DNA of 64,000 nt from Bacteroides stercoris ATCC 43183 (lineage in GTDB: Bacteria; Bacteroidota; Bacteroidia; Bacteroidales; Bacteroidaceae). This document shows, in pieces, positions 16,360 through 63,695 of the stretch. Each line of letters begins with the position of its first letter. Position 1 is the first letter of the stretch. The stretch spans positions 1,240,001-1,304,000 of the forward strand of contig NZ_CP102262.1 of NCBI RefSeq assembly GCF_025147325.1, read 5' to 3'. The position numbers and the translations under genes are program-made. The notes beneath the pieces are model-generated. The model was not told the DNA's origin, made no database searches, and worked only from the letters and a program-made list of their open reading frames with translations.

Positions 16360-16447
16360 TTCAGTATACGACTGATATAGGTTCAGTCGTATACTGAATG
16401 TATTTCAATCGTATAGTGAATGGCTTTCAGTTATGCCTTCATCCTTT
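16360..16447. repeat. 22-bp-period array of short palindromes (array 1)
   Basis: Units start at 16360, 16382, 16404 and 16426, each with TTCA. Units 1 and 2 hold TTCAGT-N5-ACTGA; unit 3 has TTCAAT-N5-AGTGAA; unit 4 is degenerate. Units 1 and 2 together make an exact 18-bp stem (16358-16375 with 16383-16400, 7-base loop). The array ends 18 bp before the DUF4450-type gene, so it lies in its promoter or leader. A second hairpin-like stretch (CCCCTTTTCTG ... CAGAAGGGG, 16327-16355) precedes it. Confidence 0.65.
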
Positions 16448-35989: not shown

Positions 35990-36304
35990 TTGTATAAGGT
36001 AGGGCAACACCTTGCAAGATACGAAGGAATTAGACACACAAGAATAACACTTTACCTATTTCCCTATAGACGGACTGAACGGCACCAGGTAGCTAGAACC
36101 TGGTAGGGAGCAAAGCACACTTACCCAATACCTTTGCATAATCGGAGGCGAGATACAGAACATAAGCAGATGCACACAAAAATGTGTTGGAAGCGGTTCT
36201 TTCGTTTGTATGGTAGTAAAAGAGAGGTTATAACAATACCATAAATTAGATAGTTGACGTAGTTTTTGATGCAAACATCTATAATACAAAGTATTACAAT
36301 ACAG

Positions 36305-54450: not shown

Positions 54451-54560
54451 CAGACTATCATTGCCAGTTCGTTGGCATAATCGTGCCATATAAGTGGCAT
54501 AGTTGTGCCAATAAATAGGCATTGTTGTGCCAACAAAGTGGCACAATAATAATTCAAGGC
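54451..54560. repeat. 22-bp-period array of TGGCA-N6-TGCCA palindromes (array 2)
   Basis: TGGCA or a near-match starts at 54473, 54495, 54517 and 54539, exactly 22 bp apart. TGCCA follows at 54484, 54506 and 54528, and an earlier TGCCA at 54462 fits the same register. So each unit is an inverted repeat TGGCA-N6-TGCCA followed by a 6-bp AT-rich linker. It lies 174-283 bp upstream of the DUF4136-like gene and 54 bp after the aldo/keto reductase terminator. Confidence 0.7.
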
Positions 54561-57419: not shown

Positions 57420-58763
57420 ATGAGCAAGATTTTAGTCGTTGACGATGAAGTACAGCTCCGTACCCTTTTGTCGCGTATGTTGGAGTTGGAAGGATATGAA
57501 GTATGCCAGGCCGGTGATTGCAGGACTGCTTTGAAGCAGTTGGAATTTCAGAGCCCGGATGTAGTCTTGTGCGATGTGTTTCTTCCTGACGGTAACGGGG
57601 TAGACCTTGTGTCGTCTGTCAAGAAAACAGCCCCTAACGTAGAGATAATCCTGTTGACGGCGCACGGTAATATCCCGGACGGGGTGCAGGCCATTAAGAA
57701 CGGCGCTTTCGATTATATCACCAAAGGTGATGATAACAATAAGATTATACCGCTTGTTAGCCGTGCCGTAGAGAAGGCGCGCATGAACGTCCGCTTGGAG
57801 AAACTGGAAAAGAAAGTGGGGCATACGTATTCTTTCGATTCTGTTTTGGGTGATTCGAAAGCATTGAAAGATGCCGTTTCACTGGCACAGAAAGTATCGG
57901 GAACGGATGTTCCCGTATTACTGACGGGTGAAACGGGTACGGGAAAGGAGGTCTTTGCGCAAGCCATACATTATAATAGTAAGCGTGCTAAGCAGAATTT
58001 CGTAGCGGTAAACTGCTCCTCTTTCAGTAAGGAACTGTTGGAAAGCGAGATGTTCGGTCATAAAGCCGGTTCGTTTACAGGAGCATTGAAAGATAAGAAA
58101 GGATTGTTTGAGGAGGCCGACAATGGCACTATCTTCTTGGATGAAATCGGTGAAATGGCATTTGAACTGCAAGCCAAACTGCTGCGCATTCTCGAAACAG
58201 GCGAATATATAAAGATTGGCGATACCAAACCCACCCGTGTGAATGTGCGTGTTGTTGCCGCAACCAACCGCAATCTGCCGGAAGAGATTACCGCAGGACG
58301 TTTTCGCGAAGATTTATTCTACAGACTCTCCGTATTCCAAATTCATCTGCCGCCCTTGCGTGAACGGGCGGGCGATGTACGTATTCTGGCAAAAGCCTTT
58401 GTAAAGGACTTCTCCGTTCGGTTGGCACGTCCCGTTACGGAAATAACACCCGCTTTTCTCGAAGCCCTCGAACAACAACCTTGGAAAGGTAATATTCGGG
58501 AATTGCGTAATGTGATAGAGCGCAGTCTGATTGTTTGCGAGAGTGAACGGCTGGATGTTGCCGACTTGCCGCTCGATATACAGAACACACATTACGAACA
58601 ATCCGATGAAACCACTCCCGGCAGTTTTGAACTTTCTGCCATGGAGCGTCGCCACATCGCCCGTGTGTTGGAATATACAAAAGGTAATAAGACCGAAGCA
58701 GCCCGCCTGCTCAAAATCGGATTGACCACACTCTACCGCAAAATCGAAGAATACGGAATATAA
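57420..58763 (+). CDS. NtrC-family sigma-54 response regulator
   Basis: 447 residues. A receiver domain (ILVVDDEVQLRTLLSRMLEL; phospho-acceptor Asp about 55 in VLCDVFLPDGNG; Lys in ITKGDDNN). AAA+ domain with Walker A TGETGTGKEVF, the sigma-54 contact loop AGSFTGA (variant of GAFTGA), Walker B TIFLDEIGEM and the arginine-finger region. C-terminal Fis-type HTH (GNKTEAARLLKIGLTTLYRK). It activates sigma-54 promoters by ATP hydrolysis after phosphorylation. The kdp operon with a -24/-12 promoter lies directly downstream; the histidine kinase is not in the window. A repeat array at 58791-58922 may be its enhancer. Confidence 0.93.
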   Translation: MSKILVVDDEVQLRTLLSRMLELEGYEVCQAGDCRTALKQLEFQSPDVVLCDVFLPDGNGVDLVSSVKKTAPNVEIILLTAHGNIPDGVQAIKNGAFDYITKGDDNNKIIPLVSRAVEKARMNVRLEKLEKKVGHTYSFDSVLGDSKALKDAVSLAQKVSGTDVPVLLTGETGTGKEVFAQAIHYNSKRAKQNFVAVNCSSFSKELLESEMFGHKAGSFTGALKDKKGLFEEADNGTIFLDEIGEMAFELQAKLLRILETGEYIKIGDTKPTRVNVRVVAATNRNLPEEITAGRFREDLFYRLSVFQIHLPPLRERAGDVRILAKAFVKDFSVRLARPVTEITPAFLEALEQQPWKGNIRELRNVIERSLIVCESERLDVADLPLDIQNTHYEQSDETTPGSFELSAMERRHIARVLEYTKGNKTEAARLLKIGLTTLYRKIEEYGI

Positions 58764-58790: not shown

Positions 58791-58922
58791 GTTTCCCGGC
58801 GTGGAACGAAGTGTTCCATGTCGGGAAACAAAGTGTACCATGCCGGGGTACTCTTTGTTTCACCCCGTGGAACTTCCGGTTTCTCCTAAGGAAATAAATG
58901 GTTTCGCCAGATGAACCTCGAA
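58791..58922. repeat. Six-unit 22-bp-period palindrome array (array 3)
   Basis: Units start at 58791, 58813, 58835, 58857, 58879 and 58901. Positions 1-5 are GTTTC, GTTCC, GTACC, GTTTC, GTTTC, GTTTC. Positions 13-17 are GGAAC, GAAAC, GGTAC, GGAAC, GAAAT, GAACC. Thus each unit is a 5-7-5 inverted repeat plus a 5-bp linker. In unit 3 both arms changed together (GTACC/GGTAC). It lies 27 bp after the regulator's stop codon and about 130 bp upstream of the kdp promoter. Confidence 0.8.
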
Positions 58923-58952
58923 GCATGCAATGTACCTTTTCTATTTTGATAG

Positions 58953-58990
58953 ACACCCTTTCATTTTGAAAGGGTGTTTTCTTTTTCTGT
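58953..58990 (+). terminator. Terminator of the response regulator gene
   Basis: ACACCCTTTCA (58953-58963) and TGAAAGGGTGT (58967-58977) form an exact 11-bp stem with a 3-base loop, followed by TTTTCTTTTT. Confidence 0.88.
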
Positions 58991-59051: not shown

Positions 59052-59068
59052 TGGCACGCATTTGGCAA
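59052..59068 (+). promoter_or_regulatory. Sigma-54 type -24/-12 promoter of the kdp operon
   Basis: TTGGCACGCATTTGGCAAT contains GG (59053-59054), ten bp and GC (59065-59066), with the TGGCACG half of the consensus (TGGCACG-N4-TTGC) exact and TTGGC at the -12 side. It is 47 bp before the first small gene of the kdp operon. It fits activation by the neighbouring NtrC-type regulator. Confidence 0.75.
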
Positions 59069-59320: not shown

Positions 59321-61027
59321 ATGAATACGGAAATTTTAGGTGTAGTTTTACAGATTTTCCTGTTGGTGGCGATTTCTTATCCGCTGGGAAAATATATTGC
59401 GAAGGTTTATAAAGGAGAGAAGACATGGTCGGACTTTATGAAACCGCTAGAGAGACTGATATTTAAGGTAGCGGGCGTTAATCCCAATGAAGAAATGAAC
59501 TGGAAGCAGTTCCTCAAGGCGTTGCTGATATTGAATGCTTTCTGGTTTGTCTGGGGAATGGTGCTGTTGGTCAGTCAAGGATGGCTGCCGCTGAATCCTG
59601 ACGGTAATGGCCCGCAAACTCCCGACCAGGCATTCAATACCTGCATCAGTTTTATGGTAAACTGTAACTTGCAGCATTATTCCGGTGAGAGCGGACTGAC
59701 GTATTTTACCCAGTTGTTCGTCATCATGCTCTTCCAGTTTATTACCGCAGCGACAGGTATGGCGGCTATGGCGGGCATTATGAAGTCCATCAGCCGTAAA
59801 ACAACGAATACAATCGGTAACTTCTGGAACTTTCTTGTATTGAGTTGCACGCGTATTCTTTTGCCGCTTTCCCTGATTGTCGGCTTTATCCTTATTACAC
59901 AAGGTACTCCGATGGGTTTTGACGGTAAGATGGAGGTGACTACGCTTGAAGGACAGGAACAAACGGTGTCACAAGGGCCGGTGGCTGCCATCGTTCCTAT
60001 CAAGCAGTTGGGTACGAACGGCGGTGGTTACTTCGGCGTAAATTCGTCTCATCCGTTGGAAAATCCTACCTACCTGTCCAATATCGTAGAATGCTGGTCT
60101 ATCCTGATTATACCTATGGCTATGGTTTTTGCGTTGGGTTTTTATACAAAACGGATGAAACTGGCTTATAGTATTTACGGCGTAATGCTCTGTGCCTATT
60201 TGGCGGGTGTCGGCATCAATGTTTATCAGGAGATGAACGGTAATCCTCGCATTGACGATATGGGCATTGCACAGGACAATGGGGCTATGGAAGGCAAGGA
60301 AGTCCGTCTGGGAGCAGGTGCTACCGCATTATGGAGCATTACAACTACGGTTACTTCCAACGGTTCCGTCAATGGCATGCACGATTCTACGATGCCCCTG
60401 TCCGGTATGATGGAGATGCTGAACATGCAGATAAACACTTGGTTCGGCGGTGTCGGTGTAGGGTGGATGAACTATTATACATTTATCATTATCGCAGTCT
60501 TTATCAGCGGACTGATGGTGGGACGTACACCGGAGTTTCTCGGAAAGAAAGTGGAAGCCCGGGAGATGAAAATAGCAACAATCGTTGCGCTGCTTCATCC
60601 GTTTGTGATATTGGTAGGCACGGCTCTGTCTTGTTACCTCCTTGCGCACCATCCGGAGTTTGTAGAGAGTGAGGGCGGCTGGCTGAACAATCCCGGTTTT
60701 CACGGGCTGAGCGAGCAATTCTATGAATTTACTTCGTGCGCTGCCAACAACGGCTCCGGTTTCGAAGGCTTGGGCGACAATACTTATTTCTGGAACTATG
60801 CCTGCGGTTGGGTACTTATTCTGAGCCGTTTTCTTCCTATTGTAGGGCAGGTTGCCATTGCTGGTCTGTTGGCGCAGAAGAGATTTATTCCCGAAAGTGC
60901 CGGTACGCTGAAAACCGATACGTTCACCTTTGCCGTAATGACTTTTGCCGTAATCTTTATCGTGGCAGCTTTGTCTTTCTTCCCGGCACATGCGTTGAGT
61001 ACTATTGCCGAACACTTCAGTTTGTAA
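59321..61027 (+). CDS. kdpA: KdpA, potassium-channel-like subunit
   Basis: 568 residues, the normal length. Ten membrane helices and four pore-loop motifs: VNCNLQHYSGESG, GTNGGGYFGVNSSHP, VTSNGSVNGMHDSTM and TSCAANNGSGFEG (selectivity filters). It binds and passes potassium ions with very high affinity in the P-type ATPase complex KdpFABC in the inner membrane. Runs into kdpB after 20 bp. Confidence 0.97.
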   Translation: MNTEILGVVLQIFLLVAISYPLGKYIAKVYKGEKTWSDFMKPLERLIFKVAGVNPNEEMNWKQFLKALLILNAFWFVWGMVLLVSQGWLPLNPDGNGPQTPDQAFNTCISFMVNCNLQHYSGESGLTYFTQLFVIMLFQFITAATGMAAMAGIMKSISRKTTNTIGNFWNFLVLSCTRILLPLSLIVGFILITQGTPMGFDGKMEVTTLEGQEQTVSQGPVAAIVPIKQLGTNGGGYFGVNSSHPLENPTYLSNIVECWSILIIPMAMVFALGFYTKRMKLAYSIYGVMLCAYLAGVGINVYQEMNGNPRIDDMGIAQDNGAMEGKEVRLGAGATALWSITTTVTSNGSVNGMHDSTMPLSGMMEMLNMQINTWFGGVGVGWMNYYTFIIIAVFISGLMVGRTPEFLGKKVEAREMKIATIVALLHPFVILVGTALSCYLLAHHPEFVESEGGWLNNPGFHGLSEQFYEFTSCAANNGSGFEGLGDNTYFWNYACGWVLILSRFLPIVGQVAIAGLLAQKRFIPESAGTLKTDTFTFAVMTFAVIFIVAALSFFPAHALSTIAEHFSL

Positions 61028-61047: not shown

Positions 61048-63102
61048 ATGTTTATGAAGGATAAAAAATCAGCTTCTTTGTTTCAAAAGGAGCAAGTAAT
61101 GGAAAGTTTGAAACAGTCATTCGTGAAGTTGAATCCGCGGGTGATGATAAAGAATCCGATCATGTTCACTGTGGAGCTGGTGACATTGGTGATGCTGGTA
61201 GTCTGCATCCTCTCTTTGGGAACATCGGAATACGGGACGTTCGGTTATAACTTCCTGGTGTTTGTGATATTGTTTGTCACTTTGTTGTTTGCCAACTTTG
61301 CCGAGGCCATTGCCGAAGCCCGTGGCAAGGCACAGGCGGACAGCCTGCGTAAAACGCGTGAAGAAACGCCCGCAAAGGTTTTGGTGGAAGGCAAGTTACG
61401 CACTGTAAGCAGCGCACGTCTCAAGAAGGGAGACTTCTTTGTTTGCGAAGCCGGCGATACGATTCCTGCCGATGGCGAGATTGTGGAAGGGTTGGCTTCT
61501 ATTGACGAGAGTGCCATTACCGGTGAATCCGCTCCGGTAATCCGTGAGGCGGGCGGTGATAAAAGCTCCGTTACCGGCGGTACGAAAGTGCTGTCGGATA
61601 AGATAAAGGTGTTGGTTACGCAGCAACCGGGCGAGAGTTTCCTCGACAAGATGATTGCGCTGGTAGAGGGTGCCACCCGGAAGAAAACACCGAACGAAAT
61701 AGCGCTGACTATCTTATTGGCCGGTTTTACGTTAGTGTTCGTAATCGTATGTATTACGTTGATTCCGATGGCGGACTATACCAATATCGACCATCCGGGT
61801 ACGTATATCTCTATTGCGGCTATTCTTTCATTGTTTGTCTGCCTGATACCGACAACCATCGGCGGCTTGCTTTCGGCAATCGGTATTGCCGGTATGGATC
61901 GTGCTCTGCGTGCCAATGTAATTACAAAATCGGGCAAAGCCGTTGAAACTGCCGGTGACATTGATACGTTGCTGTTGGACAAGACCGGTACAATTACTAT
62001 CGGTAATCGTAAGGCTACCAAGTTTCATCCGGCTCCGGGCATTGATGAAAAGGTGTTTGTAGAGGCTTGCCTATTGTCCTCGCTTTCCGATGAAACCCCG
62101 GAAGGAAAGTCCGTCATCGAGTTGGGGCGTGAGAACGGACATCGTATGCGCGACCTCAATACTGCGGGAGCCCACATGATTAAGTTTACGGCCGAAACCA
62201 AATGTTCCGGTGTCGACCTGCAAGACGGTACTCAAATCCGCAAAGGTGCGTTCGATGCGATTCGTCGGATTGTGGAAAGCGCGGGGAATAAATTCCCGAA
62301 AGAAGTGGAAGAAGCGATTGCCGTCATTTCGGGCAATGGCGGTACCCCGCTGGTAGTGTGTGTCAATAAAGCGGTATTGGGAGTCATAGAATTGCAGGAC
62401 ATTATCAAGCCGGGCATCCAGGAACGCTTTGAACGTCTTCGTAAAATGGGGGTGAAGACGGTCATGGTGACCGGTGACAACCCGTTGACCGCCAAATATA
62501 TTGCCGAAAAAGCCGGTGTGGATGATTTCATTGCCGAAGCAAAGCCGGAGGATAAAATGGAGTATATCAAGAAAGAACAGCAGGCCGGCAAACTGGTTGC
62601 CATGATGGGAGACGGAACCAATGATGCCCCCGCGCTGGCGCAGGCAAATGTGGGGGTTGCCATGAATAGCGGTACGCAGGCTGCAAAGGAAGCCGGCAAT
62701 ATGGTAGACCTTGACAATGACCCGACCAAGCTGATTGAAATAGTAGAGATAGGCAAGCAGTTGCTGATGACGCGCGGTACGCTTACGACTTTCTCCATTG
62801 CGAATGATGTGGCCAAATACTTTGCTATTATTCCCGCACTGTTCATGGTTGCTATCCCTCAATTGGCCCCATTGAATATCATGGGGTTGCATAGCCCTGA
62901 AACGGCCATTCTTTCGGCTATCATCTTTAATGCTGTCATCATTCCCATACTGATACCGTTGGCTTTGAGAGGCGTCCGGTACAAACCGATCGGCGCAAGC
63001 GCGTTACTGCGCCGCAACTTGCTGATTTATGGTTTGGGTGGTGTCATAGCGCCGTTCATAGGTATTAAGTTAATAGATATGTTTGTCAGTTTGTTTTTTT
63101 AA
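61048..63102 (+). CDS. kdpB: KdpB, P-type ATPase catalytic subunit
   Basis: 684 residues. Catalytic motifs in order: actuator loop [14 protein letters not shown], phosphorylation site [20 protein letters not shown] (Asp of DKTGT), nucleotide-binding KGAFDAI, hinge [12 protein letters not shown] and [20 protein letters not shown]. Ends in membrane helices. It hydrolyses ATP to drive potassium uptake by KdpA. An internal start at 61054 (MKDKK) is possible; the listed start MFMKDKK follows ATCAGAT without a strong site. Confidence 0.97.
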
Positions 63103-63119: not shown

Positions 63120-63695
63120 ATGAAAACTCTTTGGAAATCAGTTAGAATAACCGTCGCTTTCTGCATATTCTTTTCCGTGTTCTATATCCTTGTATTGTGG
63201 ATATTCGCACAATTTGCAGGGCCGAATAAAGGAAATGCCGAGGTATTGACCCTGAACGGCAAGGCAGTGGGCGCTGCCAACGTGGGGCAGATGTTTACGG
63301 AAGACATTTATTTTTGGGGACGGCCTTCCTGTGCCGGTGACGGTTATGATGCAAGCAGCTCGGCAGGTAGCAATAAAGGCCCTGCAAATGAAGAATACCT
63401 TGCGGAAGTGGAAGCGCGTATAGATACATTCTTGCTGCATCATCCTTATTTGCAGCGTAAAGAAGTTCCTGCCGAAATGGTAACGGCCAGCGCTTCGGGG
63501 CTTGATCCCGATATTACGCCTGCCAGTGCTTATGTACAGGTAAAGCGTGTGGCTGAGGCAAGGGGAATGGATGAGGCTACTGTCCGGGGCATCGTTGACA
63601 AGGCTGTTGAAAAACCGTTGCTGGGATTGTTCGGTACGGCGAAAGTGAATGTGCTGAAACTGAATATTGCATTGGAAAAAGCAAATGGAAAATAA
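63120..63695 (+). CDS. kdpC: KdpC, potassium-pump accessory subunit
   Basis: 191 residues. One N-terminal membrane helix (ITVAFCIFFSVFYILVLWIF) and a periplasmic domain with the typical FTEDIYFWGRPSCAGDGYDA, SSAGSNKGPANEEYLAEVEA and MVTASASGLDPDITPASAYV motifs. It assembles KdpB with KdpA and raises nucleotide affinity. It follows kdpB after 17 bp. Confidence 0.96.
   Translation: MKTLWKSVRITVAFCIFFSVFYILVLWIFAQFAGPNKGNAEVLTLNGKAVGAANVGQMFTEDIYFWGRPSCAGDGYDASSSAGSNKGPANEEYLAEVEARIDTFLLHHPYLQRKEVPAEMVTASASGLDPDITPASAYVQVKRVAEARGMDEATVRGIVDKAVEKPLLGLFGTAKVNVLKLNIALEKANGK

Follow-up and report, generated by a model that had tools for sequence, protein, structure and literature searches.

The six-unit palindromic array at positions 58791..58917 of the Bacteroides stercoris ATCC 43183 sequence analysed here (64 kb in full, hereafter the window) looks, from its sequence, like a member of a repeat family that is dispersed between the genes of Bacteroides. 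The building block of this family appears to be a half-site of 4-5 bp that recurs at 11-bp intervals with alternating orientation and would thereby generate 17-bp dyads at a 22-bp period. We consider the chances about even (a probability of roughly 0.5) that these arrays are elements copied between intergenic sites, with half-sites recognised on duplex DNA by a putative protein that binds side by side. Arrays of this kind would spread through copying and turn over between species, while selection would act on double-stranded DNA to maintain the half-site together with its helical phase. The likeliest reason for such selection would be a putative sequence-specific DNA-binding protein that aligns side by side and whose specificity differs per class; since one period is shared by many unrelated half-sites, a single protein would not explain it. 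The focal array, which lies between the stop codon of a regulator gene and its terminator, would ride in the 3′ UTR and take no part in kdp activation.

Structure and location of the focal array

The units of the focal array (no strand assigned) start at 58791, 58813, 58835, 58857, 58879 and 58901, with 22-bp spacing throughout and no slippage, and each consists of 17 bp followed by a 5-bp linker, exactly as had been reported in a preliminary description made from the sequence alone. The 5-7-5 consensus given there, GTTYC-N7-GRAAC, captures the 17+5 layout but is not followed throughout: units 5 (GTTTC..GAAAT) and 6 (GTTTC..GAACC) deviate from it, and by hand count 25 of the 30 arm pairs are Watson-Crick, five of five in unit 3 and four of five in each remaining unit. 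Unit 3 does carry the paired change described in both arms, reading GTACC..GGTAC. The dyads had also been proposed to share one face of the DNA; neighbouring dyads are indeed roughly co-facial, but because 22 bp correspond to 2.1 turns at 10.5 bp per turn, the shared face shifts gradually from unit to unit. In the predicted fold of the array (z score -6.4 as RNA and -5.9 as DNA), units 1 and 2 (58791..58829) together form a stem of 17 paired positions, wobbles counted, around a 5-nt loop.

The array begins 27 nt past the stop codon of a gene for an NtrC-type response regulator (57420..58763, plus strand), in which domain matches place a receiver, a sigma-54 interaction domain and a Fis-type helix-turn-helix. 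It ends upstream of the predicted intrinsic terminator hairpin of the regulator mRNA (58953..58977, plus strand; fold and sequence), which is followed by a T-rich run. Further downstream is the sequence TGGCAC-N4-TTGGCA (59052..59067, plus strand), recognised by eye, which by the sigma-54 consensus we take to be a -24/-12 promoter 5′ of kdp. Next come kdpA (59321..61027, plus strand), kdpB (61048-63102) and kdpC (63120-63695). This map agrees with the original placement of the array between an NtrC-type regulator and a -24/-12 kdp promoter.

Period-22 arrays across the chromosome and in relatives

The preliminary description had suggested, as one of two readings, that the focal array belongs to a family of structured arrays with members at two other loci of the window. 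Both are real 22-bp arrays, neither assigned to a strand. The first, at 16360..16420, has half-sites of the TTCAGTCGTATACTGAA class, and the same class is found at the matching site of the relative G056. The other, at 54473..54547, is of the TGGCA-N6-TGCCA class, has a 16+6 geometry instead of 17+5 and is absent at the matching site of both B. clarus (G031) and G018.

The family reaches far beyond the window. A dyad scan of 2.06 Mb (51% of the 4.008-Mb chromosome) found 25 intergenic arrays at period 22, compared with 0-2 at each of the remaining periods between 14 and 40, and one first-order Markov control gave 0 arrays at the same dyad and lag-identity thresholds. An array was called where three 17-bp dyads at a given period had 12 or more of 15 arm pairs and a lag identity of 0.5 or higher, and where open reading frames of at least 90 codons covered no more than half of it. 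The focal array is therefore more than chance and is one member of a period-22 set. Intergenic 22-bp arrays had been expected elsewhere in Bacteroides as well, and tens of matches per genome occur in several species.

Exact 8-mer direct repeats, counted in 520 intergenic regions of 1.26 Mb of the same genome, recur at lag 22 in 22 regions, at lag 44 in 14 and at lag 23 in 4; lag 21 is found in 26 regions, lag 14 in 20 and lag 11 in 19. By eye, the regions at lags 21 and 14 consist mostly of 7-bp-type repeats (such as TATAAAG and CAATTCT), which are apparently unrelated. In five near relatives (346 kb), lag 22 ranks highest with 10 regions, followed by lag 44 with 9 and all others with at most 5. 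In G060 (200 kb) lag 22 occurs in 8 regions and other lags in at most 3; in G021 (220 kb) the signal is weak, with 5 regions each at lags 22 and 44 and 4 each at lags 11 and 21. The dyad test at period 22 counted 4 in the five relatives, 1 in G060, whose 200 kb show no period-22 excess by this test alone, and 3 in G021, a slight excess over the at most 2 at other periods in the same 220 kb. An apparent separate period of 33 was rejected, its top matches being period-22 arrays at half phase. In other Bacteroidota, 48 kb of intergenic sequence, a sample biased to the kdp locus, showed no excess of dyads at period 22, and the signal at lags 20 to 23 in them seems, by eye, to come from the kdp terminator palindromes.

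Half-site classes and genomic distribution

The arrays sort by half-site into class A (TACC/GGTA), class B (GTTTA/TAAAC), class C (GTTYC/GRAAC), to which the focal array belongs, and smaller classes. The class A pattern TACC-N7-GGTA-N7-TACC-N7-GGTA, in which half-sites alternate every 11 bp, has 65 exact matches at 18 loci in the B. stercoris genome, and its reversed control has 0. Within the genus it is matched in 10 of 149 genomes including this one, with 47 matches in G031, 40 in G286, 25 each in G293 and G289 and at most 7 in the remaining five; among 157 other Bacteroidales genomes, G150 alone has a match. Class C is more widespread, occurring in 57 of the 149 genomes with a maximum of 83 matches (G241) and 8 in B. 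stercoris, and its reversed control is zero except in G015 (3), G069 (9), G253 (1), G280 (5) and G290 (4).

As in a phased protein-binding array, the half-sites of class A hold a constant helical phase. Across 12 arrays, neighbouring opposite half-sites lie 11 bp apart in 118 of 130 cases (61/67 inward and 57/63 outward), and 12 of 20 same-direction neighbours are 11 bp (4) or 22 bp (8) apart.

Three of the 25 arrays are located between divergent genes. The 15 same-strand arrays lie closer to the stop than to the start codon (median 49 versus 165 nt, Wilcoxon p = 0.04). The 30 of 56 flanking genes scanned with Pfam have unrelated functions, such as gyrase A, Clp ATPase, MutS family, trigger factor and SusD, and no recurrent candidate for a binding protein was found among them. 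Regulators are scarce in this set, comprising an AraC-type regulator (L016), a second sigma-54-type response regulator (L055, 12882-14225, in the B. stercoris genome), which adjoins a class A array, and the focal regulator. The GC skew switches near 2.8 Mb, the probable terminus, and 9 of the 18 class A loci fall no more than 0.5 Mb from that point; clustering of class A at ter was unconvincing in a circular test of the 18 zero-mismatch loci (p = 0.28).

Arm pairing

The proposed covariation of the two arms did not hold up in general. Among the plus-strand class C matches listed for seven genomes (G286 left out), which comprise 103 units, the variable arm pair is T-A in 69, T.G in 15, C.A in 16 and C-G in 3 (Fisher p = 1.0), so that the compensatory change characteristic of structured RNA was not found at this pair. 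Inner pair 6 of the same units is paired in 59 of 103, compared with 49.3 after shuffling (maximum 64). In class A, 26 of 65 units have a complementary outer pair, versus 30.6 in shuffles. Inner pairs 6, 7 and 8 are paired in 40, 30 and 30 of the 65 versus 32.7, 20.1 and 19.8 (shuffle maxima for pairs 7 and 8: 33 and 32), an excess that is partly explained by the recurrence of some units. Some dyad pairing remains in that class A inner pairs 7 and 8 are above shuffles, and arm conservation is in part built into the selection of units, since most arm positions are already specified by the patterns used for classes A and C.

Mismatches on the sense strand numbered 31 G.T and 27 A.C in 10 same-direction arrays of the 17 examined, a comparison that excluded arrays with a lag identity below 0.45 and those at 1526970 and 1450101; the focal array alone has 7 G.T and 3 A.C. 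Between B. stercoris and B. clarus, unit 3 differs as GTACC/GGTAC against GTTCC/GAAAC, with one pair swapped and one broken. Because the variable arm pair does not covary, it seems to be the half-site on DNA, and not a hairpin, that is conserved. Together with the near equality of G.T and A.C, this disfavours arm pairing in RNA or in a cruciform as the selected property.

A candidate enhancer at the kdp locus

NtrC-type upstream activating sequences are dyad symmetric and lie near a -24/-12 promoter. The focal array shares the dyad symmetry and has such a promoter nearby, but it is not conserved with that promoter, whereas another palindrome is. Motif comparison identified two candidate enhancer copies (no strand), CTATTTTGA at 58941..58949 and TCATTTTGA at 58961..58969, the latter within the terminator stem-loop. 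The two palindromes are 20 bp apart, precede the -24 element by about 90 bp and form the sole such pair in the 64-kb window.

Palindromes of the TCATTTTGA type were found at all 20 Bacteroides loci with kdpA next to the regulator and at 2 of the 6 other loci of the genus set. They are paired at 20-22 bp in 8 of the 20, and they lie 345-388 nt from the kdpA match in 15, 260-261 nt in 4 and 427 nt in 1. The focal-class array was present at only 3 of the 20 (G000, G031 and G018), with a weak array in G042, as judged by a detector that is blind to direct-repeat arrays such as that of G056; it is thus missing from most orthologous loci. In the wider Bacteroidota, 80 loci were found by the regulator protein and 75 used, the other five ending too near the gene. 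Three of the 75 were undecided, and a TCATTTTGA/TCAAAACGA-type palindrome occurs at 41 of 47 regulator-kdpA loci versus 5 of 25 with another gene next (p = 2e-8, which is somewhat flattering because the pattern was loosened after the first loci were inspected), with 34/750 in the shuffled control.

The other reading of the preliminary description, that the regulator binds the array as an enhancer, consequently finds no support. With the array at 3 of 20 loci and the palindrome at 20 of 20, the focal array is unlikely as an enhancer and is probably not the kdp control switch. The neighbouring CTATTTTGA/TCATTTTGA pair at 58941-58969 is the better enhancer candidate on sequence grounds and likely represents a sigma-54 activator site, which provides a concrete and testable candidate kdp enhancer motif for Bacteroidota.

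Spread and turnover of the arrays

Judged by regulator identity (96%), B. clarus is the closest named relative, and there the focal array has 6 units; by eye, it has about 13 in G018. Since the array is common to these two, it was probably gained in the common ancestor of B. stercoris, B. clarus and G018. At the kdp site, further species have different 22-23 bp repeats, or none. The kdp intergenic region of G056 (L149) contains direct 22-bp CGTTAGRCC repeats and, after them, roughly two units in inverted copy, an arrangement resembling a fold-back, and that of L069 contains direct GGCTACACC-like half-sites every 22 bp with one inverted GGTGTAGCC at the end.

Loop words recur across class C, with 65 distinct words in 103 units against a null mean of 96 (minimum 86), and the two most frequent have 10 and 9 copies, each in 5 genomes and in both orientations. 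In G019, a 74%-complete draft, closely similar class A 37-mers are found on 7 contigs, two of them identical, and several class A arrays have, by eye, a common leader sequence. Copying by itself could account for both the recurrent loop words and the similar copies.

The Y1 transposase profile (PF01797) had 0 matches in the B. stercoris genome, although it may not cover the Bacteroidetes subclass 2.6 described in PMC6006769. Matches were present in 7 of 15 array-rich genomes (B. stercoris included) and 3 of 9 array-poor ones, which is no clear association among 24 genomes chosen and grouped by hand from class A and class C counts. An origin from a RAYT/REP system was rejected on both counts. 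A plasmid search with one class A array returned no match, and a phage search with the focal array only one 35-base match (E 0.4).

Comparison with known repeat systems

Cooperative operator arrays and plasmid iterons have half-sites about one helical turn apart and a two-turn period near 22 bp. The arrays described here resemble them in both respects and differ in being chromosome-wide; the 30 flanking genes scanned include neither rep nor par. REP/BIME elements are likewise short intergenic palindromic units in many copies, clustered and in alternating orientation. Unlike these, the present arrays have a rigid 22-bp period, several sequence classes per genome and a variable arm pair without covariation, and the cognate RAYT (Y1) transposase was not found in their genome. 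REP/BIME units have a GT[AG]G or CGTC foot (PMC3733652, PMC6006769); by eye, neither foot is apparent in class C units.

The BrickBuilt MITE of Porphyromonas gingivalis is also from the Bacteroidales, intergenic and present in genome-wide copies with internal tandem units (PMC4596501). In that report it consists of 23-nt direct tandem 'bricks' with IS5-type terminal repeats, has matches solely in P. gingivalis and P. gulae, and is accompanied by a mention of 22-nt tandem repeats in strain W83. The present arrays differ from BrickBuilt as so described in having a 22-bp period, palindromic units with alternating half-sites and several classes, and GAGACCNTTGCA is absent from the 64-kb window as an exact match. 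The near-palindromic PM2 promoter motif, whose elements lie at -10 and -30 (PMC7366714), was considered and rejected because it does not appear to resemble the arrays. A literature search, judged by titles and abstract openings, found no description of the arrays examined here.

Alternative explanations

The main rival of the protein-bound-array reading is a REP/MITE-like repeat of a passive or selfish kind, which a transposase or recombination would copy and which would have no binding function; we regard this as a real if tentative possibility. It would accommodate the insertion-like presence and absence of arrays at matching sites, the common leaders, the similar copies in G019, the recurring loop words and the proximity of arrays to stop codons. 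Copying alone, however, would not keep the 11-bp half-site spacing while loops and linkers diverge, and the Y1 results speak against the usual agent of such copying. Fold-back copying combined with tandem slippage could yield 22-bp repeats without selection, as the G056 kdp site might suggest; since it leaves unexplained both the dispersal of an identical half-site class at many unrelated loci and the free loops next to fixed arms, we regard it as very improbable. If no protein binds the arrays, they are a repeat family without its usual transposase; if one does, dominant gut bacteria would possess a layer of DNA organisation or regulation that has so far gone unrecognised. The stronger proposal of a genus-wide chromosome-organising or silencing system, in which proteins of fast-changing specificity polymerise on dispersed arrays of 11-bp-phased half-sites and the class of arrays and protein shifts jointly between clades, seems to us unlikely.

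Two further explanations concern the focal locus more directly. That the array is the upstream activating sequence through which the NtrC-type regulator controls kdp is suggested by its site, its dyad symmetry and the second sigma-54-type response regulator that adjoins an array, in that case of class A. This is very improbable given that the TCATTTTGA-type palindrome, not the array, accompanies kdpA and keeps its distance from it, and that class C arrays also adjoin mutS and other unrelated genes. An RNA element, that is, a 3′ UTR hairpin array which stabilises the mRNA or yields an sRNA, would fit the position between stop codon and terminator, the strong predicted fold, the G.T excess of the focal array and the pairing at class A inner pairs 7 and 8. 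It appears improbable in view of the variable arm pair without covariation, the lack of an overall G.T excess and the three arrays between divergent genes, and no array was matched at the Rfam gathering score, either in the window or in the seven 20-kb stretches that were selected for their class A arrays. Two Rfam families were observed outside the arrays, namely DUF2693-FD RNA (RF02926) at 36061-36109 of the window, close to two tRNAs, and the FopS paralogous sRNA (RF04319) at L212 11893-11964, close to an rRNA operon.
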